Made by a program: the position numbers and the translations under genes | Source of the DNA: an uncultured Rubrobacteraceae bacterium | Lineage (GTDB): Bacteria; Actinomycetota; Rubrobacteria; Rubrobacterales; Rubrobacteraceae | Reading direction: 5' to 3' | Assembly: GCA_902805985.1 (NCBI GenBank) | Contig: CADCUW010000391.1 | Location: 1-28,607, forward strand | Length of the DNA: 28,607 nt | Notes under the pieces: model-generated | Database searches by the model: none | Told to the model about the DNA's origin: nothing | The model's input: only the letters and a program-made list of their open reading frames with translations | Shown here: positions 7,528 through 25,212 of the stretch, piece by piece | How the letters are laid out: every line of letters begins with the position of its first letter | Numbering within the stretch: position 1 is the stretch's first letter

Positions 7528-8076
7528 CTAGTCCTCCTTCAAGACGCGGTACAAGAGGTGCGTTACGCCGGGGGCGTCGACCACCCTGACCCCTTCTAGC
7601 CCCACCCTCCCGACACCCTCGAACAACCTGATTCCCCCGCCGAGCAGCACGGGCACCAGGTGGACCTGTATCTCGTCGACGAGCCCGGCCCCAAGGCACT
7701 GCTGCGCGACGCTCGCCCCACCGCCCACGGCGACGTTCCCGTCGCCCGCGCTCCTCTTCGCCCTCTCGACGGCCTCTTCGACCCCCTCCGTGACGAAGGT
7801 GAACTTCATCCCGCCCCTGGCCGGCCTCTCGGGCGGCTCGTGGGTCAGCACGAAGTGTTCGACCGCGTAGGGACTGTGCGCGAACCCGTCCATCCTGTCC
7901 CCCTGGTCGTAGGTGCGGCGGCCGATCAAGATCGCCCCCGTGTTCCCCACGGACTCGGCGACGGCCTCGCCGCCCGAGGGCGAGAAGAACCAGTTGTGGA
8001 GCCCCCCGTCCTCGCCGCTTGGCCCCGCGACGAACCCGTCGAGCGAGACGTTCATATCCAGTAGCACTTTGCCCAC
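7528..8076 (-). CDS. DHFR-like RibD C-terminal domain protein (copy 2)
   Basis: A 182-residue member of the same superfamily as the copies at 6484, 9013 and 12598. It starts 'GKVLLDMNVSLDGFVAGP' and carries 'AILIGRRTYD', 'FVTEGVEEAVERAKRSAGDGNVAVGGGASVAQQCLGAGLVDEIQVHLVPVLLGGGIRLF'. Its nearest relative in the window is the copy at 9013, which shares this C-terminal block almost residue for residue, defining a second paralog pair. The start is a GTG at 8076 with GGGGAGGA at proper spacing. One base separates its stop from the VOC gene, making a two-gene unit. Expected to bind NAD(P)H; substrate unknown. Confidence 0.87.
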   Translation of the reverse strand: MGKVLLDMNVSLDGFVAGPSGEDGGLHNWFFSPSGGEAVAESVGNTGAILIGRRTYDQGDRMDGFAHSPYAVEHFVLTHEPPERPARGGMKFTFVTEGVEEAVERAKRSAGDGNVAVGGGASVAQQCLGAGLVDEIQVHLVPVLLGGGIRLFEGVGRVGLEGVRVVDAPGVTHLLYRVLKED

Positions 8077-8101
8077 GAGATCCTCCCCTGGTCGTTAACT
8101 A

Positions 8102-8923: not shown

Positions 8924-8984
8924 TCTTTCCCCTCTCCTTTTGCCCGCTCTTTCCTGCCGGATCCTACCGGCCCCAACCCATTCC

Positions 8985-9006
8985 CGGCACGAAGCCGCTC
9001 GTGCCG
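8985..9006 (-). terminator. Stem-loop after DHFR-like copy 3
   Basis: CGGCACGA (8985-8992) and TCGTGCCG (8999-9006) form a perfect 8-bp stem with a 6-base loop. It begins 6 bases after the stop codon of the minus-strand gene ending at 9013, the usual place for a terminator. The following sequence is not U-rich, so it is at best a weak or Rho-assisted terminator. Confidence 0.45.
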
Positions 9007-9012
9007 ATCCCG

Positions 9013-9627
9013 CTACTTGACGACGCGGAAGGTAAGGTGCGTAACCCCGGCGCCCTCGATAACGCGGGTACTCCTTAGGTCTATCGGCCCCGCGCCGAGG
9101 TGCTCGAAAAGCCGGACGCCGTCCCCGAGCAGCACGGGTACGAGGTCCACGTGTATCTCGTCGAGGATGCCGGCCCTGATGCACTGCTGCGCGATGCTGG
9201 CGGCGCCCACGGCGACGCCCTTGTCGCCCGCTGCCGCACTCGCCCTCTCCACGGCTTCTTCGACGCCGTCCGTGACGAACTGGAACGGGGATCCCTCGTA
9301 GACCCACTCCTCGGGAGCCGTGTGGGTGACGACGAAGGTCGGCACGCCCAGGGGTGGATCGCCGCCCCACCCGTTGGCGATGTCGAAGGTCCTCCGCCCC
9401 GTCACGAACGCCCCCATACCCGCGTGCGCCTCCCGGAGCATCTCGGCGCTCTGCGACGAGACCTCGAACACCATCTCGGTGCCCGGCAGCCCGTATTCGG
9501 TATCGCCGCCGGAGTACCAAGCGAAGAGCCGCTCGCCGCCTTCGCCCAGCGGTGCGCCGGGGCCATCGTTCGGGCCGGCTATGAAGCCATCAAGCGACAT
9601 CGTGAGCCCCGTGGAGACCTTCCCCAT
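9013..9627 (-). CDS. DHFR-like RibD C-terminal domain protein (copy 3)
   Basis: A 204-residue DHFR-like/RibD_C protein, the longest of the four in the window. It opens 'GKVSTGLTMSLDGFIAGPNDGPG' and has 'GAFVTGRRTFDIANGWGG' and 'SIAQQCIRAGILDEIHVDLVPVLLGDGVRLFEHLG'. The extra length compared with copy 2 is an insertion around residues 30-75. The ATG at 9627 follows GAAAGGAAGGA; the longer frame to 9900 runs into the serine hydrolase gene and is not used. NAD(P)H-dependent reductase of unknown substrate by family. Confidence 0.87.
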   Translation of the reverse strand: MGKVSTGLTMSLDGFIAGPNDGPGAPLGEGGERLFAWYSGGDTEYGLPGTEMVFEVSSQSAEMLREAHAGMGAFVTGRRTFDIANGWGGDPPLGVPTFVVTHTAPEEWVYEGSPFQFVTDGVEEAVERASAAAGDKGVAVGAASIAQQCIRAGILDEIHVDLVPVLLGDGVRLFEHLGAGPIDLRSTRVIEGAGVTHLTFRVVK

Positions 9628-9647
9628 GTTCGTCCTTCCTTTCGTGT

Positions 9648-9675
9648 GGTGGATACCGTCAAGGTGGATACCGTC
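9648..9675. repeat. Short tandem direct repeat
   Basis: GGTGGATACCGTC occurs at 9648-9660 and again at 9663-9675, with a 15-base period, in the 62-base gap between two genes. A 9-base partial copy (GATACCGTC) is at 9717-9725 inside the serine hydrolase gene. Probably slippage duplication of the 3' flank. Confidence 0.5.
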
Positions 9676-9689
9676 GTGGTGCTGACGCG

Positions 9690-10802
9690 CTAGCTGCCGG
9701 CGACGGCCTTCGTGACGATACCGTCGATCTTTTGGGCGGCGTCGAAGTTGGAGGTGAGCCTGTTCTTTACCAGCGCGAAGGTGGTCCCGGTTGCGGTGTC
9801 GGCGTACGCGTGGCTTCCGCCGGCGCCCCCCATGCCGAACACGGTCGGGGGCTCCTGCGAGTCGGCCCCGAGGCGTCCGGGGGCGTAGCCGAGCGCCCAA
9901 GAGACGGGGTTTCCCATGATCTCATCGACCCCGCTGAACGCCACGGCGGAGGCCTCGCGCAGCCGCTCGGGCGGGAGGAGCCGGACGCCGTCTACCTCGC
10001 CGAGCAGCGCGGCGTACATACGAGCGATCGCGCGCGCGGACATCTTGCCCCCGGCGGGGATGTCCGCCATCAGCACGTCGGGACGGTTGCCGAACTCGGC
10101 GGTCGGGAAGGTCGCGCGCGGCCCCCACTTGAGGATCGGCGCATCGTCGGGCATGGCGGCCACAAATTCTGCGCCGCCCTCCTCATCCTCTAGGCGGGCC
10201 AGCCTGCCAAGCTCGGGCTCCGGCATTCCGAAGTACAGTTCGTCGGCGATGCCGAGCGGGCCGGCCACCTCCTCCCGGAGGACCCGGGAGATAGGCTCGC
10301 CGGTGGCCCGGCGCACGATCTCCCCGACGATGTACCCGAAAGTGTAGGCGTGATAGGCGGTCCTGGTCCCCGGCTCCCACCAGGGCTCCAACCCGGCGAT
10401 AACGGCGCACATCTTCTCCCAGTCGCACAGGTCTTCGGGTGTCGTGTCGGCCGGTATGCCGGGCACGCCGACCGTGTGCGTCAGGGCATGGCGCACGGTC
10501 GCCGTCTCCTTGCCGTGGGCGCCGAACTCGGGCCACAGATCGACGATCGGGGTGTCGTAACCGAAGACGCCGCGCTCAACGAGCACGTGCGCCACGGTCG
10601 CGGTCGCGCCCTTGCCGGTCGAGTAGGCGTAGAAGGGGGTGTCTGAAGCGACCGGGCGTCCGCTCTCGTGATCGGCGACGCCAGCCACAGCGTCTACTAC
10701 CTGTTCGCCGTGGCGGTAGACGGCCACCTGCAGGCCCCTCTCGGCTCCCGACTCGACGAGATCGTCGATGGCTTCCTGGACTTGTTGCTGCAGATCTTTC
10801 AC
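9690..10802 (-). CDS. Serine hydrolase, class C beta-lactamase/esterase (EstB-like) family
   Basis: A 370-residue serine hydrolase of the beta-lactamase superfamily, usually an esterase or peptidase-type enzyme rather than a true beta-lactamase. The SxxK motif is S61-T-G-K64 ('AYSTGKGATATV'). The tyrosine motif is at Y153 in 'YHAYTFGYIVGEIV', where the Asn of YxN is replaced by Phe, as in many EstB-like esterases. The third motif region is 'GGAGGSHAYAD' near the C-terminus. No signal peptide is seen, which argues against a periplasmic/exported beta-lactamase and for a cytoplasmic esterase. The GTG start at 10802 has GAAGGG about 9 bases upstream. An ATG two bases earlier in another frame is closed by a stop. 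Confidence 0.87.
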   Translation of the reverse strand: MKDLQQQVQEAIDDLVESGAERGLQVAVYRHGEQVVDAVAGVADHESGRPVASDTPFYAYSTGKGATATVAHVLVERGVFGYDTPIVDLWPEFGAHGKETATVRHALTHTVGVPGIPADTTPEDLCDWEKMCAVIAGLEPWWEPGTRTAYHAYTFGYIVGEIVRRATGEPISRVLREEVAGPLGIADELYFGMPEPELGRLARLEDEEGGAEFVAAMPDDAPILKWGPRATFPTAEFGNRPDVLMADIPAGGKMSARAIARMYAALLGEVDGVRLLPPERLREASAVAFSGVDEIMGNPVSWALGYAPGRLGADSQEPPTVFGMGGAGGSHAYADTATGTTFALVKNRLTSNFDAAQKIDGIVTKAVAGS

Positions 10803-10883
10803 GCTCGCATCCCTTCGTACTGGTAGATTGCCCGTTGGCGGGCGCCGCCGCCTCTCGGGTGTGTCCCCTCCGCGGATACTCCT

Positions 10884-11429
10884 TTACAGACCCTTGATAT
10901 CCAGGGCGACTTCGGACAGATCTTCGTCGAACTGGTGTCCCCGGCCGTCGAACTCCCGGACGGTCGCCCGCGGGAGCACCTCCGCGTAAAGCGCCAGGTG
11001 CTCGAAGGGCACCACTTCGTCTTCGCGGCCGTGGTAGAGGAACACCGGCAGTCTCTCGGGGAGCCTCGACGCGAAGTCCTTTTGCAGCGCGTAACCGTCG
11101 ATCTCCCAGCCCCCAGTCCCCACGTAGGGAGCGGCGACGAGGAACAGCCCGGCAATGGGTCCCTCCACCGCTTCCTCAGAGAGGTACTTGAGCAGAACGA
11201 AAGCGCCCGCGGAGTGCCCGACCAGGACCACTTCGCCGTCCGTCGCGGCGAGTTCTTCTGAGATCCTATCTTTCCAGGCCGCGTCCTCGGGGCTGTCTTC
11301 GTCCGGCATCTTCGGAGACCGCACTTCGTAGCTGGTCCCCAGCGCATCTCCTAGAGAGACCGCCAGCTTCTCATCCGCCTCGTGCGCCCCCTGCCCTGCG
11401 CCGTGAACGAACAGCACCTGTCTCTTCAT
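10884..11429 (-). CDS. Small alpha/beta hydrolase, RBBP9/YdeN-like
   Basis: A 181-residue single-domain alpha/beta hydrolase. The catalytic residues are visible: Ser73 in 'GHSAGA', Asp137 in 'GREDEVVP' and His165 in 'GRGHQF'. The first strand 'QVLFVHGAGQG' at 4-14 supplies the oxyanion hole. The size and the late Asp/His pair place it near the RBBP9/YdeN group of serine hydrolases, which are cytoplasmic and of poorly known substrate. The ATG at 11429 has GAAGGAGGGAAG upstream with suitable spacing. It is preceded by a 231-base gap and so may have its own promoter. Confidence 0.86.
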   Translation of the reverse strand: MKRQVLFVHGAGQGAHEADEKLAVSLGDALGTSYEVRSPKMPDEDSPEDAAWKDRISEELAATDGEVVLVGHSAGAFVLLKYLSEEAVEGPIAGLFLVAAPYVGTGGWEIDGYALQKDFASRLPERLPVFLYHGREDEVVPFEHLALYAEVLPRATVREFDGRGHQFDEDLSEVALDIKGL

Positions 11430-11660
11430 GGGTTCACTTCCCTCCTTCCTGTCGGCCTCTGCGATAGAGACCGGTGCAGAGCCTCTCCACCGGGTGAGAG
11501 CTATCTCGGGACGATGCCGTGCGCCTGCACGGGGACTCGGTGTGGGACTGGTTCATGGCACCCTTCGGTACTCTGAGTTTGTCCTGCGACTTTTCTTGGT
11601 CCCACTCGGCTCCCTGCACGTCGTTCGTGAGAGCGTCCCGACGTCCAAGCCGTTCCTCTG
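11430..11660. other. Gene-free gap of 231 bases
   Basis: I found no supported coding region here; overlapping open frames on both strands have no ribosome binding site or recognisable protein. It holds the ribosome binding site of the downstream hydrolase at its left edge and one short inverted repeat, CCGGTG (11471-11476) with CACCGG (11488-11493). No convincing promoter hexamers were seen. Confidence 0.5.
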
Positions 11661-12509
11661 CTACGGCCGGCCGGCGCGGGCAGCGGGCGCCGGGGCGGTC
11701 AGGATCTGGCCGGTCCGCTCTTCTTCGGTCGCGCTCTCCATGCCGCGCCACTCCCGCGCCACCATGAACAGCGTCTTCCCATCGGGGCCCCCGAGCATGC
11801 AGGCGAAGCAGCCCCGGTCGGGCTCGATGGTCTGCAGAATCTCGCCGCCTTCGCGGACGCGCACGCACCGCTCGTTCGGGACGTCCGCGTACCAGATCGC
11901 GCCCTCCGCGTCCAGGCAGATGCCGTCGGGCACGCCGTCGCCGAGGTCGGCCCACACCCGCCGGTTCGATAGATCTCCGTCGACCGCGACGTCAAAGGCG
12001 GTAAGCCTGCTGCCGTAGGACTCGGCGACGATAAGCGTCGAGCCGTCGGGCGTCAAGACGATGCCGTTGGGGAAAGCGAGGCAATCCGCCACCTGCCGGG
12101 CCTCTCCGTCCGGGGTGATCAGCGCGAGGGCTCCTGGGGCAAACTCGCCGGCCGGGAAGTCGAAGCCGATGTTGCCGACGTAGGCGTTGCCCCGGCCGTC
12201 CACGACGATGTCGTTCCAAGGGTGCTCGGAGAGGTTGCTCAGGTCGGCGTGGTCCACCAGCAGCCCGTCGGGTTCCCGGCGCCGGAGCCGCGCCTCGGGC
12301 CCCGACACGACTAGAAGGCGGCCGTCGGGCAGCCAGTCGATGCAGAACGGGGCGTTAGTCGCGGCGTGGACGATTACCTCGCTGTTGCCCTGGAGGTCGA
12401 CGGCGACGATCTCTTGGGTACCCCAGTCGGAGAACCAGAGATGGTCATGGTGCCAGCGCGGCGACTCGCCGAACGAGATGCCGCCCAAGAGTATTTGCGG
12501 CTCAGGCAC
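11661..12509 (-). CDS. SMP-30/gluconolactonase/LRE family protein
   Basis: A 282-residue six-bladed beta-propeller of the SMP-30 family, typically a metal-dependent lactonase that opens sugar lactones. The metal ligands line up as Glu15 ('SFGESPRW'), Asn148 ('AFPNGIVL') and Asp195 ('GVPDGICLD'), the same order and spacing as in regucalcin. Repeated 'W-x-DG/PDG' blade ends support the fold. The start is a GTG at 12509 with GAGAGGAG 7 bases upstream. Its start overlaps the end of a 31-codon remnant ORF. Lactone hydrolysis is known for the family; the natural substrate here is not known. Confidence 0.88.
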   Translation of the reverse strand: MPEPQILLGGISFGESPRWHHDHLWFSDWGTQEIVAVDLQGNSEVIVHAATNAPFCIDWLPDGRLLVVSGPEARLRRREPDGLLVDHADLSNLSEHPWNDIVVDGRGNAYVGNIGFDFPAGEFAPGALALITPDGEARQVADCLAFPNGIVLTPDGSTLIVAESYGSRLTAFDVAVDGDLSNRRVWADLGDGVPDGICLDAEGAIWYADVPNERCVRVREGGEILQTIEPDRGCFACMLGGPDGKTLFMVAREWRGMESATEEERTGQILTAPAPAARAGRP

Positions 12510-12597
12510 CCGCGTACTCCTCTCCCCCGAACTGGTCGAAGGCGGCGATCCCGGCCCGGTAGATCACTACGCTTTTATCCTGCAGTAGAAGCTCCAT
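12502..12597 (-). pseudogene. 31-codon ORF, probable remnant of a short-chain dehydrogenase N-terminus
   Basis: The ATG at 12597 directly follows the TAG of the DHFR-like gene, with GGGAAGG upstream, and the frame runs to a TGA at 12502 overlapping the SMP-30 start. The product starts 'MELLLQDKSVVIYRAGIA'. Many SDR oxidoreductases start in this way (LLL.DK.AVIYGAGG.IG), but the glycine-rich loop is broken (RAGIA) and nothing SDR-like follows. I infer an old internal deletion that removed most of an SDR gene. It might still be translated and couple the flanking genes. The match is short, so chance cannot be excluded. Confidence 0.4.
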
Positions 12598-13158
12598 CTA
12601 GGCCTTCCCCTCTCCGGCGGGCCGGTAGTCGAGGGAGACGACGCCCGTGTCGAACGTCTTTGTGCGGACGAGTTCGAGTCCCACAGGAGGCCCTTCCCCC
12701 TCGAAGAGGCGCTTCCCGCCGCCCACGACGACGGGATAGACCATGAGCCTGAGCTCGTCGAGGAGACCCTCCTTGAGCATGGAACGGGCCAAGGTGTCGC
12801 TGCCGACTATCGTGATGTCCTCTACGGGTTGCCGCTTGAGTTCGGCTATCTTCTCCACGACGTCGCCCCCGATCAGGGCGGAGTTGTTCCACCCCAGGGG
12901 CTCCTCCAGGGTCGTCGAGACCACGTACTTGGACACGCTGTTGATGTAATCCACCATCGGCGCGCCGCCCTGCTGGTGCGGCCAGAAGGCGGCGAACGCC
13001 TCGTACGTCACCCTCCCGAGCAGCAACGCATCAGACGCGGCCATGCCGGCCTCGTTGGACCTCTCGATCTCGCGATCGTTGTACGGAAAGGCCCAACGAT
13101 CCGGCGCCCCCATAACCCCGTCCAGGGATACCATCTCCACCGCGACCAATCTCCTCAA
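12598..13158 (-). CDS. DHFR-like RibD C-terminal domain protein (copy 4)
   Basis: A 186-residue RibD_C/DHFR-like protein, paralogous to the copy at 6484. Common blocks are 'SLDGVM', 'SDALLLGRVTYEAFAAFWP', 'KYVVSTTLEEPLGWNNSALIGGDVV' and 'GLLDELRLMVYPVVVGGGKRLF'. I start at the TTG at 13158, because GAGGAGG lies 5 bases upstream and the resulting N-terminus (RRLVAVEMVSLDG) matches copy 1; the longer frame to 13347 crosses the promoter region. It is divergent from the HxlR-type regulator at 13288, which is probably its regulator. Function unknown, NAD(P)H binding expected. Confidence 0.87.
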   Translation of the reverse strand: MRRLVAVEMVSLDGVMGAPDRWAFPYNDREIERSNEAGMAASDALLLGRVTYEAFAAFWPHQQGGAPMVDYINSVSKYVVSTTLEEPLGWNNSALIGGDVVEKIAELKRQPVEDITIVGSDTLARSMLKEGLLDELRLMVYPVVVGGGKRLFEGEGPPVGLELVRTKTFDTGVVSLDYRPAGEGKA

Positions 13159-13194
13159 TGAACCCTCCTCGCCAGCCCAGAATCTCCTGGTCTG

Positions 13195-13222
13195 AGCATA
13201 CGGAGTTAGTCCTAAACCACAA
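13195..13222 (-). promoter_or_regulatory. Candidate promoter of DHFR-like copy 4
   Basis: On the minus strand TTGTGG (13222-13217) and TATGCT (13200-13195) are 16 bases apart, about 37 bases before the TTG start at 13158. An inverted pair TTAGTC (13206-13211) and GACTAA (13242-13247) brackets the -35 side and could be part of the HxlR operator. Confidence 0.4.
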
Positions 13223-13271
13223 CCATTAGATTGATAAATACGACTAAACAGATAGACGTTAGGATCTTCGG

Positions 13272-13280
13272 TGGTAGACT
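13272..13280 (+). promoter_or_regulatory. Extended -10 element giving a leaderless HxlR transcript
   Basis: TGGTAGACT (13272-13280) is an extended -10 (TGnTAnnnT). Seven bases separate it from the ATG at 13288, so transcription would begin at or next to the A of the start codon. Neither ATG nearby has a properly spaced ribosome binding site, in contrast to nearly all other genes here. Leaderless mRNAs with this geometry are common in actinobacteria. Confidence 0.45.
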
Positions 13281-13287
13281 CGGCTGT

Positions 13288-13974
13288 ATGGTGGGTATGC
13301 GGGAATCGAAGAAGCGCACGTACGACGACGGGTGCGCGGCGGCGCACGCGCTCGACCTTGTCGGGGAGCGGTGGGCGCTGCTGGTGGTGCGCGAGTTGCT
13401 GCTAGGACCGAAGCGTTTTACGGACCTCAGGGCCGGCCTGCCGGGCGCGAGCCCCAACGTTATCTCCCAGCGGCTGCGGGATCTGGAAGCGGCGAGTATC
13501 GTGCGCCGCCGGAAGCTCCCGCCTCCGGCGGCCTCCCGCGTCTACGAGCTGACCGGGTGGGGCGAAGAACTGGAGCCTGTGATCGTGAGGTTGGGACGCT
13601 GGGGCGCCCGGTCCCCCTCCAAGCCCCGAGACGCCGCTCTAGGCGTTGACTCTCTGATTCTGTCCTTCCGAACGATGTTCGATCCGCAGGCCGCCCAGGG
13701 CCTCAGCGCTAGCTACGAGCTAAGGTTCGGCGAGGACCGGTTCCATGCCGTGGTGGACGACGGGCGGTTCGAGATCTCCCGCGGGAGCGCGGACGGTCCC
13801 GATGCTGTCGTCGAGGCCGACTCCGACACCCTGGCCGCCCTGATCTACGCGGGCCGTCCCCTCGACGAGGCCGTGGATTCTGGGGACCTGAGGATAGAGG
13901 GCGACCGGACTGCGTTCGAGCACTTCCTGGCGCTATTCCCCCTTCCTGAGCCCGCGCCTCCCGCCGAAGCCTAG
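13288..13974 (+). CDS. HxlR-family transcriptional regulator with SCP2-like C-terminal domain
   Basis: A 228-residue two-domain regulator. About residues 12-105 are the HxlR winged helix ('DGCAAAHALDLVGERWALLVVRELLLGPKRFTDLRAGLPGASPNVISQRLRDLE...'). The C-terminal half ('YELRFGEDRFHAVVDDGRFEISRGSADGPDAVVEADSDTLAALIYAGRPLDEAVDSGDLRIEGD') resembles the SCP2/sterol-carrier fold, a hydrophobic ligand pocket that may act as sensor. The combination is known in actinobacteria. I use the ATG at 13288 because a promoter -10 ends 7 bases upstream; the ATG at 13297 is the alternative. It is divergent from a DHFR-like gene, its likely target. Its stop codon and that of the convergent deacetylase-like gene share the palindrome CTAG. 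Confidence 0.87.
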   Translation: MVGMRESKKRTYDDGCAAAHALDLVGERWALLVVRELLLGPKRFTDLRAGLPGASPNVISQRLRDLEAASIVRRRKLPPPAASRVYELTGWGEELEPVIVRLGRWGARSPSKPRDAALGVDSLILSFRTMFDPQAAQGLSASYELRFGEDRFHAVVDDGRFEISRGSADGPDAVVEADSDTLAALIYAGRPLDEAVDSGDLRIEGDRTAFEHFLALFPLPEPAPPAEA

Positions 13975-14978
13975 CTCCGCCCGGCCGAAGGGTCGGGTAT
14001 GAGTTGCACCGCGTGGTTGGCGAACAGTAGCTCGAAGCCCGCTTCCGAGAGCGCCCCGTCGGCGCGCCGGTCGGCGTGGAGCGGGGTGCCCTCGCGCCAC
14101 GCCAGGGCGCGCACCGGTCTGCCCGCAAACTCCTCCAGGGTCCTTTTCGAGCCGGCGACCTCTTGGGCGAGTGCCCCGGGGGAGAGGTCGGGGGCGAAGC
14201 CGGGTGAGGCGGTTGTGTGGCTTTGGGTGTGGGAGGCGATGACGTGGCCGCGGCGGGCCAGGTCCCCGATCTCCCCGGGAGAGAGGGCCAGGCGGTAGCC
14301 CTTCGAGAGCTCGTCATCGTCGTACGGCAGGTTCATCAGGTGGGTGTCGGCGAAGGCGCGCTGGTCTTCGGGGCGGGAGGAGATCCAGCCGGAGATCAGG
14401 AAGAACCAGCCGGTCAGGCCGAGCCTGTCGAGGATGGGGGCGGCCACCTCGTGGTTGTCCCTGAAGCCGTCGAAGAAGTTGATGACGACGCCGGGCCTCT
14501 CGTGCGGCCACTCGCCGCGGGCGAGCAGGCCCACAAGGTCCTCGTGGGAGACGGGCGCGAAGTGCTCAGCTAGCCTTGAGAGCTGCTCCTCGAACCCGGC
14601 GGCGAGACGGCGGGGCGTGGCGTGGAAGTTGACCACCCGCACGTAACGCCCCTCGGCCAGCGCGCGGAAGGTCTCGCTCTCGTGGTGAGTACCCGCGGGC
14701 GCGACGGCCGGCGGGAAGAACGAGCGGTCCGCGAGCGTCTGCAAGGCCAGGGCTACGCCGCCGGGCCAGCCGTCGCGCTCCGCGCGGGCAAGCCCCCGGT
14801 AGATGTCCCCGGCCAGCGCCCCGAGCGCCGCGCCCTCCGCGTCCGGCCGCGCCGGGCCAACCCCGCCTTCGAGCAGGAGGAAGGTGGGCGCGCCCTTCTC
14901 GGCCAGCACCCGCCACTTCTCCCCTCCCGGGGTGCGCATGAGGTCGGCTATGGGCCCGTCGCGCCGCTCCTCATCCAC
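13971..14978 (-). CDS. Polysaccharide deacetylase-like (NodB fold) protein with altered catalytic base
   Basis: A 335-residue protein. Residues about 110-335 match the carbohydrate esterase 4/NodB fold: 'VVINFFDGFRDNHE' at motif 1 and 'GHVIASHTQSHTT' at motif 2. The metal triad is intact (Asp170, His250, His254), but the first Asp of the canonical TFDDG, the catalytic base, is Phe169. The usual R-x-P-Y motif 3 is replaced by 'RALAWREG'. Residues 1-110 match nothing I recognise. There is no signal peptide or membrane segment, unlike secreted chitin or peptidoglycan deacetylases. The start is a GTG at 14978 with GGAAGGAGGG upstream. It follows the YcaO gene by 57 bases as the last gene of the transporter operon. 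Deacetylation is uncertain; it may be a non-acetyl hydrolase or a binding protein. Confidence 0.78.
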   Translation of the reverse strand: MDEERRDGPIADLMRTPGGEKWRVLAEKGAPTFLLLEGGVGPARPDAEGAALGALAGDIYRGLARAERDGWPGGVALALQTLADRSFFPPAVAPAGTHHESETFRALAEGRYVRVVNFHATPRRLAAGFEEQLSRLAEHFAPVSHEDLVGLLARGEWPHERPGVVINFFDGFRDNHEVAAPILDRLGLTGWFFLISGWISSRPEDQRAFADTHLMNLPYDDDELSKGYRLALSPGEIGDLARRGHVIASHTQSHTTASPGFAPDLSPGALAQEVAGSKRTLEEFAGRPVRALAWREGTPLHADRRADGALSEAGFELLFANHAVQLIPDPSAGRS

Positions 14979-15035
14979 GGGAGCCCTCCTTCCTCGCGCC
15001 GGTCGCCCCCGCTCGCCACGCGAGGGTTCGGCACC

Positions 15036-16538
15036 TCACAGGACACCGTCGGCGACGAGGGCCGCCACGTGGCGGGAAGGCTCGCGGTAGAGCGGGTAGA
15101 GGCGCCCCACCCGGCTATTCAGCGTCGCCACGTCCAGCCACGGTTCGGGGCCGAACTCCCCGCGACGCGCCTCGGGCAGAAGGATGCGCCTGGCGCCCTC
15201 CGGCGGGGCTTCCGTGCCGGCGAGGTCGTCGTCGCGGCGGAGCAACCGGCGCAGGTTGCGGGCCCCGATGCGGCCGTAGCTCGCCGTCTCGACCTCCAGG
15301 CCCGGCACGATGGCCCTGACAACCCGGACCTCACCGTCCGGCGGGGAGAGGTCGATGTACAGAGGATCGAGGCCCCCCTCGCGCAGCCGGTTTGCCACCA
15401 CGGCCGCCGCGGAGCCATCGCCCACCTCTGTCGGGGGCTCGGGCAGGGAGGAGAAGTTCACCCGGGAGCGGACCGAGAAAACGGGGTCTTCGAGGAGATC
15501 CCGCATCCCGCGGGCGTCCATGCCGAGCCAGGCTACCGCCTCGCGCAGGTCCCTCTCTTCCTCGTGCTCGAGGGTGGCCGTCCGGATGGCACGGCCGACG
15601 TAGGAGCCGGGGGCGACGGCGGTCATGCGGGAGATGGGACCGTTGTCGAAGGGCTTTCGGGAGCGGCCGGCGACGTACTCCATGAGGGCTTTATTGAGGG
15701 CCTTCTCGCGGTCGGGGTCGGCCGCCTCGCCGCAGGCGGTGAGCGCGAGTGGGTGCGGCGTCTCTTCCGAGTCGCGCTCGGCGCCGACGACGTAGAGGTT
15801 CGTGATGCTGAAGTCCGTGGAGGCGAGCTTGACCGTCACCTCGATGCCGGCGCGGTCGAGCGTGTCGAGGAGCGCGAGGGTGGCCGGGTCACGGACGCTG
15901 TCCAGGCGGATGCCGATGCCGAGGTCGAGCGCGCGGTAGGTCGCGCTGTTGCCGTCCCGCTGGACGAGCTCAAGCAGGCCGTGGGCGAAGGCGTGGTCCA
16001 ACGTGGGCCCGGCCCCGAGCCCGTTGGTGACCGGCGGGACGAGCCACGCCCCGTCGGGCTCTATATCCACCGGGGAGGCCGCGACGAGCTCGATCGGTAC
16101 GAGCACGCCCTCCCCCGTCGCCCACCGCCGCGCCTCCACCCAGCGTAGGGGCCGGGTCGGCGTGTAGTCGCCGCCGGCGGGGAGGCAGACGCCAAGCGGG
16201 TCGACGACGCCGTCGGGGCCCACCTCGCGGAGCACGTCCAGGTACGAGGCCCGGCGCGGACGGAGGCGCTTCACGGCGTCGCCGGCGAACAGGGTCTCGG
16301 AGAGCTCGCCGAAGGCGCCGATGGCGGCCCGCGCGTCGGTCGGGCCGAAGCCGACGCCGTGGTGCATCGAGCCGCGGGCGGCGAACAGCTCCGCGGACCA
16401 GACCGGCAGGCCGACGCGGTCGAGCGGGTCCAGCGGGTAGGCGAGGACCGCGCCCTCCGGCAGGGCGCGCCGGTAGGACTTTATCGCGGGGTGCTCCGGG
16501 AGGGGGCGGTGCGGCGGGTCGAAAAGGGGGACCGTCAA
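15036..16538 (-). CDS. YcaO-superfamily protein encoded in a sugar ABC transporter operon
   Basis: A 500-residue YcaO-fold protein. YcaO enzymes use ATP to activate an amide, typically cyclising Cys/Ser/Thr or making thioamides in peptides. The superfamily blocks are visible: 'DARAAIGAFGELSETLF' (E78, E81), 'TNGLGAGPTLDHAFAHGLLELVQRDG' split over 171-196 with E190, R194 and D195, 'REKALNKALMEYVAGRSR' (E287, R292) and 'RAIVPGLE' (408-415). In the nucleotide-binding blocks, the usual ERD is QRD (Q193) and the Gln three residues after E287 is Ala290. The C-terminus lacks the Pro-rich PxPxP tail of azoline-forming YcaOs. The TTG start at 16538 uses an AAGGAG site lying in the last codons of the upstream permease gene, so it is translationally tied to the transporter. 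No precursor peptide, TfuA or dehydrogenase gene is adjacent. Substrate unknown. Confidence 0.86.
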   Translation of the reverse strand: MTVPLFDPPHRPLPEHPAIKSYRRALPEGAVLAYPLDPLDRVGLPVWSAELFAARGSMHHGVGFGPTDARAAIGAFGELSETLFAGDAVKRLRPRRASYLDVLREVGPDGVVDPLGVCLPAGGDYTPTRPLRWVEARRWATGEGVLVPIELVAASPVDIEPDGAWLVPPVTNGLGAGPTLDHAFAHGLLELVQRDGNSATYRALDLGIGIRLDSVRDPATLALLDTLDRAGIEVTVKLASTDFSITNLYVVGAERDSEETPHPLALTACGEAADPDREKALNKALMEYVAGRSRKPFDNGPISRMTAVAPGSYVGRAIRTATLEHEEERDLREAVAWLGMDARGMRDLLEDPVFSVRSRVNFSSLPEPPTEVGDGSAAAVVANRLREGGLDPLYIDLSPPDGEVRVVRAIVPGLEVETASYGRIGARNLRRLLRRDDDLAGTEAPPEGARRILLPEARRGEFGPEPWLDVATLNSRVGRLYPLYREPSRHVAALVADGVL

Positions 16539-16541
16539 GAC

Positions 16542-17384
16542 CTACTCCTTCAGGGAGCCGCCGAAGACGCCGGAGACGATGTACTTCTGGAAAAAGAAGA
16601 ACAGCAAGACCAGCGGGATCAGGCCTATAACGGCGGCGACCATGATCGGGGCGTACTCCACAGCCCCGCCCTGGCGCACGAGGCTCGAGAGCATCAGCGG
16701 GTAGGTGAACTTCTCCGGCGTGCTTATGATGACCAGCGGCCACAGGAAGTTCCCCCACTGGCTCATAAAGGTGACGATGCCTAAAGCCGCGCAGGCGGCC
16801 TTCATGTTCGGCAGGACGACCCTGAAGAACGCACCCAGCTCGCCGTTGCCGTCGATGCGGGCGGCGTCGAGCAGGTCGTTCGGGAAGCCCATCATCTGCT
16901 GGCGCATCAGGAAGACGCCGAAGCCCGTGACGAGGTAGGGCACGATCAGGGCGGCAAAGCTGTCCACCCACCCCAGTTGCAGCATGATGATAAAGAGCGG
17001 CACGATCATGATCTCCGTCGGCAGCATCAACGTCCCGAGCACGACCACGAACATGAGATTCCGCCCCCTGAACCTGAACTTGGCGAACGCGTACCCCGCC
17101 AGCGCCGAGAGAAAGACCGTGCTTACGGTAGTCACGGTGGCCACGAACATGCTGTTCAAGAGAGCCCTGAGGAACGGGGCAGACTCCGAGAGAGTCCTCA
17201 GGTTGGCAAAGAACTCGTCGCCGGGCAAGAGACGCGGCGGGGACTTGAAGATCTCGGACTCAGTCAGCGTCGCCGCCGTAAGCGTCCAGTAGAACGGGTA
17301 GAGCGTCACGAGCGCGCCCACGCCGAGAAAGATGTAGAGGATGAGCCTCGCGGGCTCGCTCATGCGGCGCGAACGGCCCTTCAC
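16542..17384 (-). CDS. Carbohydrate ABC transporter permease, MalG type (YcaO operon)
   Basis: A 280-residue inner-membrane permease with six predicted helices. The MalG-type EAA loop that docks the ATPase is 'LLDAARIDGNGELGAFFRVVLPNMKAA'. The N-terminus has a short basic segment and then 'LILYIFLGVGALVTLYPFYWTLTAA', typical of UgpE/MalG proteins. The GTG start at 17384 has GGGGAGGTG upstream, inside the end of the preceding permease gene; only one base lies between the two genes. Its stop overlaps the ribosome binding site of the YcaO gene, three bases before that start. It would form a heterodimer with the permease at 17386. The ATPase must come from elsewhere. Confidence 0.92.
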   Translation of the reverse strand: MKGRSRRMSEPARLILYIFLGVGALVTLYPFYWTLTAATLTESEIFKSPPRLLPGDEFFANLRTLSESAPFLRALLNSMFVATVTTVSTVFLSALAGYAFAKFRFRGRNLMFVVVLGTLMLPTEIMIVPLFIIMLQLGWVDSFAALIVPYLVTGFGVFLMRQQMMGFPNDLLDAARIDGNGELGAFFRVVLPNMKAACAALGIVTFMSQWGNFLWPLVIISTPEKFTYPLMLSSLVRQGGAVEYAPIMVAAVIGLIPLVLLFFFFQKYIVSGVFGGSLKE

Positions 17385-17385
17385 C

Positions 17386-18282
17386 CTACACCTCCCCCCA
17401 CCGGGCGAGCCGGATCTGGGCGTAGGACATCGCCGCGACTATGCCGGAGAGGACGTACGTCCCGGCGGCGGCCAGGCCGAAGTCGAAGCGGGCGAAGCCC
17501 GTGTCGTAGATGTAGAAGAAGCTCGTGAGCGTCGCGTTGTTCGGCCCGCCGCCCGTGAGGATGTACGGCTCCGTGAAGAGTTGGAGGGTGCCTATGGTGC
17601 CGAGGACCGCGCAGAAGAGGATGACGGGCCTGAGCAGCGGGACCGTGATGCGCACAAAGCGGGTGACGCTTCCGGCTCCGTCCACGCTCGCGGCGTCGTA
17701 GAGGTCCTTCGGGATGTTCTGGAGGCCCGAGAGCAGGATCACGGCGTTGTAGCCCGTCCACCGCCACGTCACCGCCAAGATGATGAGCACCCGCGCCCAG
17801 AACGGGTCCGAGCGCCACGCGATGCCTTCGAGGCCCACCAGGCCGAGCGCCTGGTTCACCACGCCGTAGCGCTCCGAGAAGATCAGGGAGAAGACCACGG
17901 AGTACGTCACGAGGTCTATCGCCACCGGCAAGAAGAACGCGAGCCGGAAGGCCGCCTTGCGCCTCCTCCCGAGCAGATCCGAGTCGATCACCGAGGCGAT
18001 GACGGTGGCCAGCCCGATCATTAGCGGCACCTGCACCACGAGGATGAGCCCCGTGTTCAACAGCGACTTCAGAAAGAGCCCGTCGGAGAGGAGCCTGCGG
18101 TAGTTCTCGAGTCCCACGAAGGTGATGCTCCCCCCGCTGAACTGCCCGAAGCTCAGGGCGGCGGAGTAGAGAATCGGATACAGGATGAACCCCGCGAAGA
18201 GCAAGAAGAACGGCGCCACGAACAGGTAGGGGGCCGCGGTCGACCAACCCGACCGCGGCCCCTTCTTGCGCCCTCCCGCCAA
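17386..18282 (-). CDS. Carbohydrate ABC transporter permease, MalF type (YcaO operon)
   Basis: A 298-residue integral membrane permease. The first helix is 'APYLFVAPFFLLFAGFILYPILYSAALSF', followed by five more, and the EAA loop is 'LYDAASVDGAGSVTRFVRITVPLLRP'. This is the MalF/UgpA half of a CUT1-type (di- and oligosaccharide) importer. The TTG start at 18282 has GGGGAG with 5 bases spacing and follows the binding-protein stop by 10 bases. Its last codons carry the ribosome binding site for the next permease. Confidence 0.92.
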   Translation of the reverse strand: MAGGRKKGPRSGWSTAAPYLFVAPFFLLFAGFILYPILYSAALSFGQFSGGSITFVGLENYRRLLSDGLFLKSLLNTGLILVVQVPLMIGLATVIASVIDSDLLGRRRKAAFRLAFFLPVAIDLVTYSVVFSLIFSERYGVVNQALGLVGLEGIAWRSDPFWARVLIILAVTWRWTGYNAVILLSGLQNIPKDLYDAASVDGAGSVTRFVRITVPLLRPVILFCAVLGTIGTLQLFTEPYILTGGGPNNATLTSFFYIYDTGFARFDFGLAAAGTYVLSGIVAAMSYAQIRLARWGEV

Positions 18283-18292
18283 TGCAGCTCCC

Positions 18293-19582
18293 CTACGCGA
18301 CCTTGAGGCCGGACGCCGAGGCGGCCCGCTCCTCGGCCTGGGCCATGGCCTCTTGCGGCGGGGTGTCGCCGGTGAGCACGGCCGAGTAGGCGTCCATGAG
18401 GGGCTTCTGGAAGTCCAGGAAGTGCGGGCCGTAGTCGAGCGCGGGGACGTTGCGGGCGATGTCCGCGAACTTCGGCGCCACGGCGAACCCGAAGTACGGG
18501 TCCGGCTCGTTGAAGGCGTCTGTCTCCCAGTACGGCTTCCACGACGGGAAGAGGCCCTGCTCCCACGACTTCGCCTGCCCCTCGCGGGTGAGGATCGCCT
18601 GCTCGATAAAGTCCCAGGCCGCGTCCTCGTTCTCGGTCTGGGAGGAGATCACGAGCACGGAGCCGCTCAAGGTCGCCTCGCGCCGTCCACCCCGCGCGAA
18701 GGCAGGGAGCGGCATCACGTCCCACTTCCCCTTCTGGGCGTCGCCGCCGGCGCTCTTTATCGTCCCGACGTCCCAGGCCGCCCCCATCGAGGTCGCCGTG
18801 TCGCCGTTAGAGATGGCGCGGCTGCTCTCGTCGTAGGTCGGGGTGTCTATGACGATCTCCTCGTTCACGAAGCGGTCGAGGAGGTCCATCGCCGCGTAGC
18901 TCTTCTCGTTGGTAAAGTCGATCCCGCCGCCCGAGCCGTAGAACGAGCCGTCCTGCTGGTTGAGCAGGATGTGGTAGTGGGAGGGGTTGTCACCGCCGCC
19001 GGAGGCGTCGAAGGCGGTCATCTTCGCCCCACCGCCGATCCTCTGCTCCAGCTCCTTGCCCGCCTCGATAAAGCCATCGTAGGTGGCGACGTCTTCGGGG
19101 GTTATGCCGGCCTCTTCGAAGAGGTCCTTGCGGTACCAGAGGCCGACGGGGCCCATGTCCCACGGCACGGCGAAGATCTTGCCGTCCTTGCGGGCGTGGG
19201 AGAGCGGGGCTTCGGCGAACTGGTCCGCGTACTTCTCCATCCTGTCGGTAACGTCCACGAACTCGCCGGGGAAGCGCGTCAGGAAGTTCTGGAAGTCCTG
19301 CTGCGCCAGGGAGAAGACGTCGGGCGCCCCGCTGCCGGCCTGCAGGCGCGGGACGAGTTGCTGGTAGTCGATGGTGATCGACTGCATGGATACGTTCGTG
19401 CCGGGCTGCTTCTTCTTGAAGAGCGGGATCGTGTTCCGCAAGGCATCGCTCGCTATGTCCCACGAAGCGACGGTCAGGCCGCCGCCAGCCGAACCTCCGC
19501 CACCGCACCCGGCGAGCGTTCCCAGCAGGGCCGTCCCGGCGAGCCCGGCGCCCCCGAGCCTCAAGAACTCCCGGCGGTTCAT
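18293..19582 (-). CDS. Sugar ABC transporter substrate-binding lipoprotein (YcaO operon)
   Basis: A 429-residue family 1 solute-binding protein that catches the sugar outside the cell and delivers it to the permeases at 17386 and 16542. The N-terminus has a clear twin-arginine motif (NRREFLRLGG) and a lipobox ending at Cys26 (LAGC), so it is probably exported folded by Tat and lipid-anchored. 'APDVFSLAQQDFQNFLTRFPGEFVDVT', 'IFAVPWDMGPVGLWYRKDLFEEAGI' and 'AAWDFIEQAI' are typical of CUT1 binding proteins. I chose the ATG at 19582 because it gives a normal signal peptide; no good ribosome binding site precedes it (AAGGTGGG is about 13-16 bases away), and a GTG at 19660 would add 26 residues. 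The ligand is unknown. Confidence 0.88.
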   Translation of the reverse strand: MNRREFLRLGGAGLAGTALLGTLAGCGGGGSAGGGLTVASWDIASDALRNTIPLFKKKQPGTNVSMQSITIDYQQLVPRLQAGSGAPDVFSLAQQDFQNFLTRFPGEFVDVTDRMEKYADQFAEAPLSHARKDGKIFAVPWDMGPVGLWYRKDLFEEAGITPEDVATYDGFIEAGKELEQRIGGGAKMTAFDASGGGDNPSHYHILLNQQDGSFYGSGGGIDFTNEKSYAAMDLLDRFVNEEIVIDTPTYDESSRAISNGDTATSMGAAWDVGTIKSAGGDAQKGKWDVMPLPAFARGGRREATLSGSVLVISSQTENEDAAWDFIEQAILTREGQAKSWEQGLFPSWKPYWETDAFNEPDPYFGFAVAPKFADIARNVPALDYGPHFLDFQKPLMDAYSAVLTGDTPPQEAMAQAEERAASASGLKVA

Positions 19583-21677: not shown

Positions 21678-22346
21678 TCAATCTACGGGTTCTCCGCCCG
21701 TCGCCGCTTCTTCGTCGGGGTCTGACGTGAGGTGGCCGACCTCGTTGGTGTAGAGGAACTTCGCCGGTCCCGCGCCGTTCGGGGGGATCTCCGCCTCGGT
21801 TATGGAGCAATTGTCGAGCCTGGTGTAGCTGTGGGGCCACTCCCCGTCGGGCTCGCCGAGCAGGTGCGCGATGATCCAGGCGAGCGCCCCCCCGTGCGAC
21901 ACGACGACGACCGCGCCGGCCTCGCGCCTGTGGGCCTCCAGGATGCGGCCTATCTCCCTCTCGGCGCGCGCCGAGAGATCAAACCCGCTCTCCCCGCCGG
22001 GCCAGCGGTAATCCACGCCCTCGAGGCGGAACCGCTCCGCCTCCTCCGGGAACTCCTCGATCCACGCCTCGAAGCGGTAGCCGGCGGCCTCCCCAACGTC
22101 GAGCTCGGCGAGCGCCGCCCTAGGCTCGGGCTCCACGCCCAGAGCGTCGCCGATGGCGCGGGCCGTGTCGAAGGCCCGCCGGTACGGGCTGGCGTAGAGC
22201 GCCAAGACGTCGTCGCGCCCGGAGAGGTGCGCCGCGATCTCCGCCGCCTGCCGCCGGCCGCGCTCCGTGAGCGGGTCCTCGCTCCCCTGGAGCCTGCGCC
22301 GCACGTTTCCCTCGGTCTCGCCGTGGCGGACCAGCAGCAGCCTCAA
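21678..22346 (-). CDS. Histidine phosphatase family protein (phosphoglycerate mutase-like)
   Basis: A 222-residue histidine phosphatase. The phosphohistidine motif 'LLLVRHGETEGN' gives His8, and the second catalytic His is about 151 in 'VVVSHGGALAW'. Other conserved residues are 'SPYRRAFDTARAI' and the acidic 'LAELDVGEAAG'. These are cytoplasmic phosphatases or mutases; with glycosidase neighbours a sugar phosphate is a plausible substrate, which is inference. I start at the TTG at 22346, which overlaps the GH1 stop as TTGA and gives the standard length N-terminus; a GTG at 22352 is the alternative. A Gly-rich GGGGTG serves as a weak ribosome binding site, so translation likely depends on reinitiation after GH1. 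Confidence 0.86.
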   Translation of the reverse strand: MRLLLVRHGETEGNVRRRLQGSEDPLTERGRRQAAEIAAHLSGRDDVLALYASPYRRAFDTARAIGDALGVEPEPRAALAELDVGEAAGYRFEAWIEEFPEEAERFRLEGVDYRWPGGESGFDLSARAEREIGRILEAHRREAGAVVVVSHGGALAWIIAHLLGEPDGEWPHSYTRLDNCSITEAEIPPNGAGPAKFLYTNEVGHLTSDPDEEAATGGEPVD

Positions 22347-23725
22347 GAACACCCCGGCCCGTTGCGCCCGATAACCTCCGAGTACCAGCGGGCGCTCGCC
22401 TTGGGGACGCGCCTCCCGGTGCCGTAGTCCACGAAGACGAGCCCGAACCGCTTGGAGTACCCCTCGGCCCACTCGAAGTTGTCCAGGAGGGACCAGACCA
22501 TGTACCCCCGCAGGTCCGCGCCCCGCTCCATCGCCTCCCGCGCGGCCCGGAAGTGGGCGTCCAGGTACGAGATGCGCTCCTCGTCGTCCACATCCCCCTC
22601 GGGGTCCACGTAGTCGTGGACGGCGCGGCCGTTCTCCGTGACGTAGAGGGGAACGTCAGCGTACTCCTCCTTGACGCGCACGAGCATCTGCGTGAGGCCT
22701 TCGGGATCCACCGGCCAGCCCATCGCGGTCTTCTCCGCCGCGTGCGGGACGATCGGACGAACCTGCAGGTCGGAGAAAGGCACCTCAGAATGCGCCTCCT
22801 CCGGCGCATCCCTCACAACGTGGCGGAAGTAGTAGTTCACGCCCAGGAAGTCGATGGGGGCCGAGATCTTCCGCAGGTCCCCGTCATTCACAAACGAGAG
22901 GTCCGCGCCGAGTTCGCGGTAGTGGGAGAACACGTCCTCGGGGTACGAGCCGCGGAAGAGCGGGTCCAGGTAGAGGCGGTTTGCCTGCCCGTCCACCCTT
23001 CGGGCGGCCTCCCTATCGGCGTCGCGGTCGCGCCCCGGGAGGGCCGGGTGCAGGTTGAGGGTGGCGCCGAGCTGGTTATCGTCGCCGGGGTTCCCCATCG
23101 AACGCATCCGCTCCATCGCCAGGGCGTGCCCGAGTAGCAGGTGGTGTGTGGCAGAGAGGGCGGCGCTCGGGTCTTTCATGCCGGGGGCGTGGGTGCCGTA
23201 GGCGTGGCCCATCCAGGCTGAGACCCAGGGCTCGTTCAAGGTGATCCAGTACGCGACAGAGTCCGAGAGCGCCTCGTAGACGATCCCCCCATATTCGGCG
23301 AAACGCTCGCTGGTCTCCCGGCTCGTCCAGCCGCCCCGGCCCTGGAGCGCCTGCGGCAGGTCCCAGTGGTAGAGGGTGAGCATCGGCTCGATGGACCGTT
23401 GCCTGAGCCCGTCGACCAGGCGCCGGTAGAAGTCCAGGCCCTTCTCGTTCGCCGGCCCGCTCCCGTCCGGCTGGATGCGGGGCCAGGCGACGGAGAAGCG
23501 GTAGGCCTTAAGGCCGATCTCCGCCATCAGGTCGAGGTCTTCTTCGAGGCGGTGGTAGTGGTCGCAGGCCGTGTCGCCCGTGTCGCCGTGCAGCACCTTG
23601 CCCGGCGTGTGGGAGAAGGTGTCCCAGATAGAGGCGCCGCGCCCGTCTTCGTTGGCTGCGCCCTCGATCTGGTACGAGGCCGTCGCCGCACCCCACAAGA
23701 AGCCTTCGGGAAAGTCCAAGCTCAT
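22343..23725 (-). CDS. Glycoside hydrolase family 1 beta-glucosidase
   Basis: A 460-residue GH1 TIM-barrel enzyme that cleaves terminal beta-glucosyl (or beta-galactosyl) residues. The N-terminal signature 'FLWGAATASYQIEGA' is at 9-23, the acid/base Glu165 in 'TLNEPW', and the nucleophile Glu364 in 'YVTENG'. There is no signal peptide. The motif around the -1 subsite lacks the basic residues of 6-phospho-beta-glucosidases as far as I can see, in keeping with ABC rather than PTS uptake. The ATG at 23725 has AGAGGAGG at good spacing, 29 bases after GH5. It probably splits disaccharides produced by the GH5 enzyme or imported directly. It overlaps the start of the histidine phosphatase by 4 bases. 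Confidence 0.93.
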   Translation of the reverse strand: MSLDFPEGFLWGAATASYQIEGAANEDGRGASIWDTFSHTPGKVLHGDTGDTACDHYHRLEEDLDLMAEIGLKAYRFSVAWPRIQPDGSGPANEKGLDFYRRLVDGLRQRSIEPMLTLYHWDLPQALQGRGGWTSRETSERFAEYGGIVYEALSDSVAYWITLNEPWVSAWMGHAYGTHAPGMKDPSAALSATHHLLLGHALAMERMRSMGNPGDDNQLGATLNLHPALPGRDRDADREAARRVDGQANRLYLDPLFRGSYPEDVFSHYRELGADLSFVNDGDLRKISAPIDFLGVNYYFRHVVRDAPEEAHSEVPFSDLQVRPIVPHAAEKTAMGWPVDPEGLTQMLVRVKEEYADVPLYVTENGRAVHDYVDPEGDVDDEERISYLDAHFRAAREAMERGADLRGYMVWSLLDNFEWAEGYSKRFGLVFVDYGTGRRVPKASARWYSEVIGRNGPGCS

Positions 23726-23754
23726 GCCTCCTCTAGAACGTATGGTCCGTTTAC

Positions 23755-25164: not shown

Positions 25165-25212
25165 CTCCACGTCCTTTCTTGTTGGAGTGTCTTCTTTCGG
25201 GCGCGGCCCGTC

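Follow-up and report, generated by a model that had tools for sequence, protein, structure and literature searches.

The window, meaning the whole stretch of 28,607 nt that was analyzed, comes from an uncultured Rubrobacteraceae bacterium. Five genes on its minus strand run in one direction in the ORF list and encode a substrate-binding lipoprotein (SBP), two CUT1 permeases, a YcaO protein and a NodB-fold protein:

18293..19582, minus strand: SBP lipoprotein, SBP_bac_8/SBP_bac_1 (Pfam 97.1/96.9 bits; lipobox LAGC in the translation)
17386..18282, minus strand: CUT1 permease, MalF/UgpA type (Pfam BPD_transp_1, 54.6 bits; NCBIfam UgpA-like below cut-off)
16542..17384, minus strand: CUT1 permease, MalG/UgpE type (Pfam BPD_transp_1, 61.2 bits; NCBIfam UgpE-like below cut-off)
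16545..16550, minus strand: AAGGAG ribosome-binding site of the YcaO gene, within the final permease codons (upstream bases)
15036..16538, minus strand: YcaO-fold protein, 500 aa, TTG start (Pfam YcaO, 174.8 bits; homologues; motif counts; fold)
13971..14978, minus strand: NodB/CE4-fold protein, GTG start (Pfam Polysacc_deac_1, 43.2 bits; alignment; fold)

The successive intergenic gaps, from the SBP to the NodB-fold gene, are 10, 1, 3 and 57 bases. Order, common direction and gaps had been given in a preliminary description of the locus and were reproduced by the ORFs and Pfam; its observation of an importer-YcaO-NodB operon is confirmed, and its first interpretation is partly supported. The SBP ORF extends to 19660, and the ATG at 19582 is the likelier lipoprotein start. 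The YcaO ribosome-binding site does lie within the end of the permease gene, as had been proposed, the sequence up to the YcaO start being ..CTG AAG GAG TAG GTC TTG. With an SBP and two permeases in order, the operon has the make-up of a CUT1 importer; it contains no ATPase gene, and CUT1 importer operons commonly lack one of their own. Genes for GH1, GH2 and GH5 proteins surround it, so plain polysaccharide use fits equally well.

The window YcaO matches PF02624 well above the gathering score (25.7 bits), has the YcaO fold, and is a member of a clade of YcaO proteins of about 500 residues. The published ATP motif, Sx6-7Ex3Qx3ExxER (Dunbar 2014, as quoted in a passage of PMC7774982), is matched by E. 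coli YcaO but by none of 95 clade locus rows and none of 120 listed homologues; where the motif normally ends in ExxER, the clade has ExxQRDGN. The strict motif does not discriminate sharply, since three other YcaOs, from three genomes with the cluster or importer settings described below, also miss it while keeping the acidic positions. By a motif alignment to E. coli YcaO made by eye, Q193 (the E202-equivalent position) is Gln in 95/95 rows, the R286-equivalent position is Lys in all 95, the window included, and the E191-equivalent position is non-acidic, also in the window protein (Phe 56, His 19, Arg 9, Gln 8 and Trp 1, for the 93 listed of 95 rows), while E78, E81, E190, R194, E287 and R292, equivalent to E. 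coli E75, E78, E199, R203, E290 and R295, are nearly invariant. The preliminary description had singled out Q193 and A290 as substitutions; both are present, but they are features of the whole clade and not of the window gene (the A290 position is Ala in 70, Ser in 12, Gly in 11 and Cys in 2 of the 95 rows). It had not mentioned the changes at the E191- and R286-equivalent positions. Because the unusual residues are shared clade-wide, local decay of a single YcaO is ruled out. Two acidic positions of the ATP motif are lost throughout the clade, so that ATP use by this YcaO is not assured. A clade that has given up the usual use of ATP, its former nucleotide site now holding a phosphorylated sugar or cyclitol, would account for the missing motif and for the Gln, Lys and non-acidic positions. 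This reading is nonetheless improbable, as it sits poorly with the six nearly invariant residues and with the three other YcaOs, which miss the strict motif yet retain the acidic positions.

To our knowledge, the characterized YcaO enzymes all act on peptide or protein amides, on which the papers cited here agree. Stand-alone archaeal YcaOs (MJ1094 and that of Methanopyrus kandleri) are associated with McrA thioamidation, according to part of PMC5589413; the window protein differs from them in having about 65 extra C-terminal residues past the match, in the E191, E202 and R286 positions that are altered in its clade, and in neighbors unrelated to methanogenesis. In contrast to the TOMM cyclodehydratases LynD, TruD and McbD, it has no PxPxP tail, and the NCBIfam model TOMM_cyclo_SagD scores 99.6 bits, below its cut-off of 219.25. 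The PxPxP C-terminus, already reported missing from the window protein, is also absent from 30 aligned sequences and from the locus rows; in its place stands a conserved tail whose core is YxxYRE (Y481, Y484 and R485 in 98/98 rows, E486 in 97/98). A TOMM C protein was not found among the 12 Pfam-scanned window proteins, nor is one named in the annotated relatives, and TfuA is absent next to the window YcaO, whose operon neighbors are the permease and the NodB-fold gene. E. coli YcaO, which thioamidates uL16 (a section of PMC13063428), shares the PF02624 domain and several ATP-site residues with the window protein. The clade, with its changed nucleotide motif, bears out the earlier suggestion of a separate YcaO subgroup. 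The lack of a RiPP setting is likewise supported, none being seen in the window or its relatives (for genes longer than short precursor ORFs), and the possibility that homologues are RiPP-linked, with the transporter link confined to this genome, was not borne out, as the link occurs in other genomes.

The partner protein had been called deacetylase-like, and it does carry the CE4/NodB Pfam domain and fold, but the usual catalytic Asp is missing. At the position of the TFDD-type motif, which we take to be the site of the CE4 catalytic-base Asp, the window protein has Phe, and the Asp is replaced in 22 of 23 aligned NodB rows (drawn from 114 hits), the exception being a distant row (P0233). Simple deacetylation by this protein is therefore doubtful. 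The same replacement sets it apart from the CE4-fold de-N-acetylases PgaB, IcaB and PplD, as do the lack of an evident signal peptide, an extra N-terminal domain, and its occurrence with sugar importer genes. In Microvirga-type genomes and on an Arthrobacter plasmid, a gene of its own encodes the N-terminal domain. Together, the clade-wide acidic losses in YcaO and the NodB-fold protein without its catalytic Asp count against a simple 'ATP-dependent amide activator'; the original proposal, in which an imported amino-sugar compound would have an amide activated by YcaO, remains plausible.

The gene order of the window is repeated in another Rubrobacteraceae contig (L006), where 3 bases separate the permease from YcaO and, if the longest NodB ORF is taken, 30 separate YcaO from NodB; a later NodB start would make the second gap wider. 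The importer setting was found in the window, L006, L042 and L079, and in two further genomes of the L079 genus, which is that of Microvirga aerophila. The YcaO is present in 3 of 48 genomes of this genus and adjoins a sugar ABC importer there, and in a Chloroflexota genome two permeases are followed by YcaO. Because the order is kept in L006 and the link recurs in other lineages, three in all, the arrangement is conserved and chance adjacency is ruled out, as the preliminary description had argued in calling the link structural. Co-occurrence of the NodB partner, which it had also raised, holds in two of the three lineages, the exception being the Chloroflexota genome, which lacks a NodB match. 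Within the Microvirga aerophila genus, NodB matches (E < 1e-70) were found in precisely the 3 genomes with YcaO. Among the Rubrobacterales, G000, G020 and G021 have NodB, whereas the five cluster-type genomes listed do not; absences in the large genome samples refer to at most 5-13 scored candidates per genome. Using contig size in place of contig names, a same-size contig carries a NodB hit for 15 of 34 window-branch YcaO clusters (contigs of at least 4 kb), leaving 19 of 34 with no such contig; none of the 62 remaining YcaO hits listed has a contig that agrees exactly in length with one bearing NodB. NodB-family genes also lie beside sugar ABC genes in L115 and L125, with no YcaO in the stretch.

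In a tree of 51 rows the importer-linked YcaOs need three changes of setting, and a single clade of them is rejected (pAU 5e-5). These changes would most simply be three gains, or else a mix of gains and losses. Of 45 Methylobacterium-type loci, 7 were retained for the trees, which also omit repeats, two additional loci of that type (L109 and L111) and the short row L083. A first tree that still included L108 (G147) had four changes of setting; this locus was dropped as an importer case since its YcaO matches only from residue ~120-128 onward and abuts a possible SBP fragment near 10528 (weak tblastn hits, E 0.007-0.009), which looks like an assembly join or rearrangement. Shared importer ancestry is unsupported: the window permeases share only 34–43% identity with the L042 and L079 permeases, which is no more than they share with other CUT1 permeases of L006 (33–43%), and the L079 SBP gives a match of 24% over 170 residues. 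A shared import substrate thus has no sequence support.

The sugar-importer context recurs, as described, but most close relatives lie instead in a cyclitol/glycosyltransferase/PIG-L gene cluster. This makes the importer the less frequent setting and probably the derived one. The SBP and permease profiles came from a small number of importer loci, and further CUT1 genes close to cluster loci could have escaped them. The cluster, or part of it on short contigs, surrounds YcaO in 76 of the best 80 loci and includes genes for a cyclitol-phosphate synthase, an HD protein, a methyltransferase, an IolG-like enzyme resembling inositol dehydrogenases, an isomerase, an MshA/BshA-like glycosyltransferase and a PIG-L deacetylase. 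Among the 58 cluster loci of at least 19 kb, the dehydrogenase, HD protein, glycosyltransferase and PIG-L are present in all, and the isomerase and cyclitol synthase in 57 each; the deposited annotation of two plasmids concurs for most cluster genes. In 4 of the 76 cluster loci a DHQ-synthase-type cyclase family (one member Pfam-tested) replaces MIPS, which points to a cyclitol as the shared need. The HD protein was found in 7/7 cluster-type and 0/7 importer-type genomes, two of the latter being 89% (G000) and 82% (G020) complete, and G020 being classed by NodB alone because its contig begins at YcaO. The combination of cyclitol synthase, GT4 glycosyltransferase and PIG-L deacetylase is reminiscent of mycothiol and bacillithiol synthesis (MshA-MshB, BshA-BshB). 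However, in one representative cluster (L118) the equivalog scores are far under the cut-offs (MshA 70 vs 462 bits, BshB1 30 vs 182, INO1 36 vs 638), and the cluster adds YcaO, the HD protein, the dehydrogenase and the isomerase, with no cysteine ligase annotated.

In many phyla the cluster setting resembles small-molecule metabolism, and it suggests that this YcaO branch may act on sugar-like molecules rather than peptides. Should the target of YcaO instead be a protein or peptide from another locus, much as uL16 is for E. coli YcaO, the position of the YcaO gene after the permease gene would only supply a convenient promoter; this is unlikely, in view of an importer setting at three separate tree positions, a NodB link in two phyla, and that resemblance to small-molecule metabolism. 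The best explanation, which we put forward tentatively as a little short of probable, is that the operon forms a branch, for uptake or salvage, of a cyclitol-aminosugar pathway not yet described, and that YcaO performs the same step in both settings. The imported substrate would be a cyclitol glycoside or N-acyl amino-sugar precursor from other organisms, the NodB-fold protein may replace PIG-L as hydrolase or binder of an N-acyl group, and the YcaO step would in both settings probably be a phosphate-assisted carbonyl activation on a small molecule; we infer both the substrate and the reaction of YcaO. A shared reaction is suggested by the 49 residues that are invariant in 41 cluster YcaOs (45 Methylobacterium-type loci thinned to 2), since nearly all are kept by importer-linked proteins: 47 in the window, 49 in L079 and 48 in L042. 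This retention also weighs against a catabolic operon, in which an imported cyclitol glycoside or N-acyl amino sugar is food, dismantled by the NodB-fold protein and by YcaO, the latter using ATP to cleave an amide in the manner of the YcaO peptidase in PDB 7u58; the window operon itself contains no kinase, aldolase or isomerase, and we regard this reading as rather unlikely. Extending the salvage reading, the YcaO branch may have left peptides for a mycothiol-like cyclitol-aminosugar, several lineages then swapping the cluster for a salvage importer and keeping the YcaO step only, a history that is somewhat doubtful.

Among the literature matches listed, no paper was found that deals with this clade of YcaO proteins, with the cyclitol cluster or with the link to importers. 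YcaO with Rubrobacter gave no match, and YcaO with Methylobacterium gave only PMC8776678, which is unrelated in the portion retrieved; 'non-TOMM YcaOs' with unknown substrate are already mentioned in an excerpt of PMC4603692. If true, a small-molecule setting conserved across several phyla would broaden the uses of YcaO chemistry and imply a cyclitol glycoside not yet described, and on the salvage reading the importer SBP should bind the compound made by the cluster. Many of the bacteria carrying the cluster are presumably from exposed habitats. Spore photoproduct lyase was rejected as a cluster gene: a four-sequence profile gave full hits in two loci, L004 and L079 (twice in the latter), and a weak fragment in L045, and a Roseomonas plasmid has two annotated spore photoproduct lyase genes.

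The preliminary description placed five genes in one operon, all running in one direction and coding for a sugar-binding lipoprotein (SBP), two permeases, a YcaO protein and a NodB-fold protein. ORF calling and Pfam searches confirmed that these genes are real and positioned as described; they are on the minus strand, the permeases are of the CUT1 type, and YcaO and the NodB-fold protein are encoded at 15036..16538 and 13971..14978. Inspection of the upstream bases bore out the claim that the YcaO ribosome-binding site lies within the end of the permease gene; it is formed by the last permease codons, and just 3 bases separate the two genes. Gene order is identical in the Rubrobacteraceae contig L006, including the 3-base gap, and relatives of the window GH5 and GH1 proteins are encoded upstream of its operon. 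In contig L003, YcaO is followed by NodB, and the upstream part is not visible because the contig begins at the YcaO gene. A second, partial YcaO-NodB copy with the same NodB neighbour occurs on contig C68 of the window genome, and probably comes from a second strain within that bin (contamination 5.93%). Upstream of the window operon, on the same strand, are a second CUT1 importer and GH5 and GH1 genes (22343-28305), and the permease, GH5 and GH1 genes upstream of the L006 operon have a similar order. Beyond the 3' end of the operon (6484-13347) are several reductase-like proteins, which we take to be RibD/DHFR-like, with SLDGVMxxP- or SLDGFxAGP-like starts, resembling a local family expansion.

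Homologues of the window YcaO, themselves about 500 residues long, numbered 1864 at E <= 0.001 among 7996 candidates scored. With each species represented by a single genome, 258 encoding loci were obtained, and gene families were mapped across the best 80 of these using profiles made from the same loci. A conserved cyclitol cluster, or part of it on short contigs, was found in 76 of the best 80; the other four were L003, L006, L042 (Chloroflexota) and L079 (Microvirga-type). By Pfam and deposited annotation, the cluster comprises inositol-3-phosphate synthase (MIPS), an HD domain protein, a methyltransferase, a Gfo/Idh/MocA dehydrogenase, a metallo-beta-lactamase-type (MBL) protein, YcaO, a sugar phosphate isomerase, a GT4 glycosyltransferase and PIG-L. 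Of the cluster loci, 58 span 19 kb or more. All 58 contain the dehydrogenase, HD protein, glycosyltransferase and PIG-L, 57 the isomerase, and 56 each MIPS and the methyltransferase; a DHQ-synthase-type cyclase was found in one, so that 57 carried either cyclase or MIPS. The MBL protein (16/58) belongs to some clusters only, since its gene cannot fit between dehydrogenase and YcaO in Methylobacterium. Profile mapping detected a MalG/UgpE-type permease in one of the 58 loci, and MalF/UgpA-type permeases, SBP and NodB in none. Hosts include Actinomycetota, Chloroflexota, Alphaproteobacteria, Myxococcota, Armatimonadota, Planctomycetota, Verrucomicrobiota and Bacteroidota. The cluster is uncommon: this YcaO was found in only 1/340 evenly sampled Chloroflexota genomes (4 candidates scored per genome), and that one (G039) is importer-type. 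Two or three tandem YcaO genes occur in Myxococcaceae clusters (L019, L038), and L015 and L076 (Armatimonadota, Verrucomicrobiota) have two each, with the DHQ-synthase-type cyclase replacing MIPS.

A YcaO of this clade was present in 9/39 Rubrobacterales genomes, three of the window kind (G000, G020 and G021, with G020 so classed by NodB alone) and six of the cluster kind (G028, represented by L004, and G031, G012, G038, G011 and G010). The NodB family was detected in 4/396 sampled Actinomycetota genomes (G000, G020, G021 and G699), and in 1/249 genomes from the order of Microvirga aerophila (G040) compared to 5/249 for YcaO, the other four being cluster-type; weak members of either family may be missed in both samples because 5 to 8 candidates were scored per genome. 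Among 48 genomes of the G040 genus, NodB matched at E < 1e-70 in exactly the three with this YcaO, where the importer genes lie on the opposite strand together with a small gene and NodB, all pointing towards YcaO. Matches in five more were weak and incomplete (E between 1e-21 and 1e-30), and we take these for ordinary CE4 proteins. In G039, an ORF that by eye reads like an SBP end, without a Pfam match, is followed on the same strand by two permeases and YcaO, and NodB had no match in this genome. The cluster HD protein, a single marker gene, was found in 0/7 importer-type and 7/7 cluster-type genomes, some of which are incomplete. A truncated YcaO head-to-head with a possible SBP fragment (L108, around 10528) was set aside as a likely assembly join or rearrangement.

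The association is conserved, its genes co-occur, and it recurs in separate lineages. In a 51-row tree, well-supported branches force each of the three changes that the importer label requires, and grouping the importer-linked YcaOs into one clade was rejected (pAU 5.4e-5). Three gains are the simplest story, with the root not fixed and losses perhaps contributing. An initial tree placed the window group together with YcaOs of Rubrobacteraceae clusters and some of different phyla; in it the Microvirga YcaO was sister to Methylobacterium and the Chloroflexota importer YcaO to a Chloroflexaceae cluster YcaO. Of 49 residues invariant in cluster YcaOs, 47 (window), 49 (L079) and 48 (L042) are kept; when cluster rows were left out one at a time as a control, the median row retained all of them and the lowest 92%. 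Members of one YcaO clade seem to have become linked to different importers with their cluster-invariant residues retained, the window importer being no closer to those of Microvirga and Chloroflexota than to other CUT1 systems.

The window YcaO has the fold of stand-alone YcaOs. Residue correspondence to E. coli YcaO was made by motif over 95 locus rows, rich in Methylobacterium. E75, E78, E199, R203, E290 and R295 (window E78, E81, E190, R194, E287 and R292) are nearly invariant. All 95 rows have Gly for S184, His for Q195, Gln for E202 and Lys for R286, and the residues at E191, listed for 93 of the rows, are Phe (56), His (19), Arg (9), Gln (8) and Trp (1). The published ATP motif (Sx6-7Ex3Qx3ExxER) occurs in none of the 95 rows, nor in 120 homologues among the matches listed. 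The His and the missing Ser can be discounted, since they are shared by three other YcaOs (from G049, G048 and G040), which keep both acidic residues, and by MJ1094, similar in sequence there and solved with ATP (6pe3). Judged by alignment, the real oddities of the clade are the two lost acids (E191, E202) and the Lys at R286.

The NodB-fold protein shares the fold of the PgaB, IcaB and PplD deacetylases, and in the alignment the paired His is present but the usual catalytic Asp is absent. Its N-terminal domain is matched by a separate small gene in the three Microvirga-type genomes, also present on an Arthrobacter plasmid (hhalign probability 71 and E 3.8e-5, compared to E 0.05 for the best of 20 shuffles). 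The protein seems to be linked primarily to the importer, because relatives on that plasmid (L115:11688-12648) and in G699 (L125:9396-10337) occur together with sugar ABC genes in stretches that contain no YcaO. Both have PfkB-type or other sugar kinases and FAH-type genes close by. On the most likely reading, the importer operon substitutes for the cluster: importer and NodB-fold protein would supply or trim a sugar-like compound, and YcaO would act on it just as it does in the cluster, where its gene lies near that of a PIG-L deacetylase. The nature of the compound, its fate (salvage or breakdown) and the use of ATP are inferences. Spore photoproduct lyase genes occur near the YcaO locus in Microvirga (L079:8675-9784), Rubrobacter marinus (L004:959-2074) and a Roseomonas plasmid (L118:15780-17901), possibly hinting at UV or desiccation stress.
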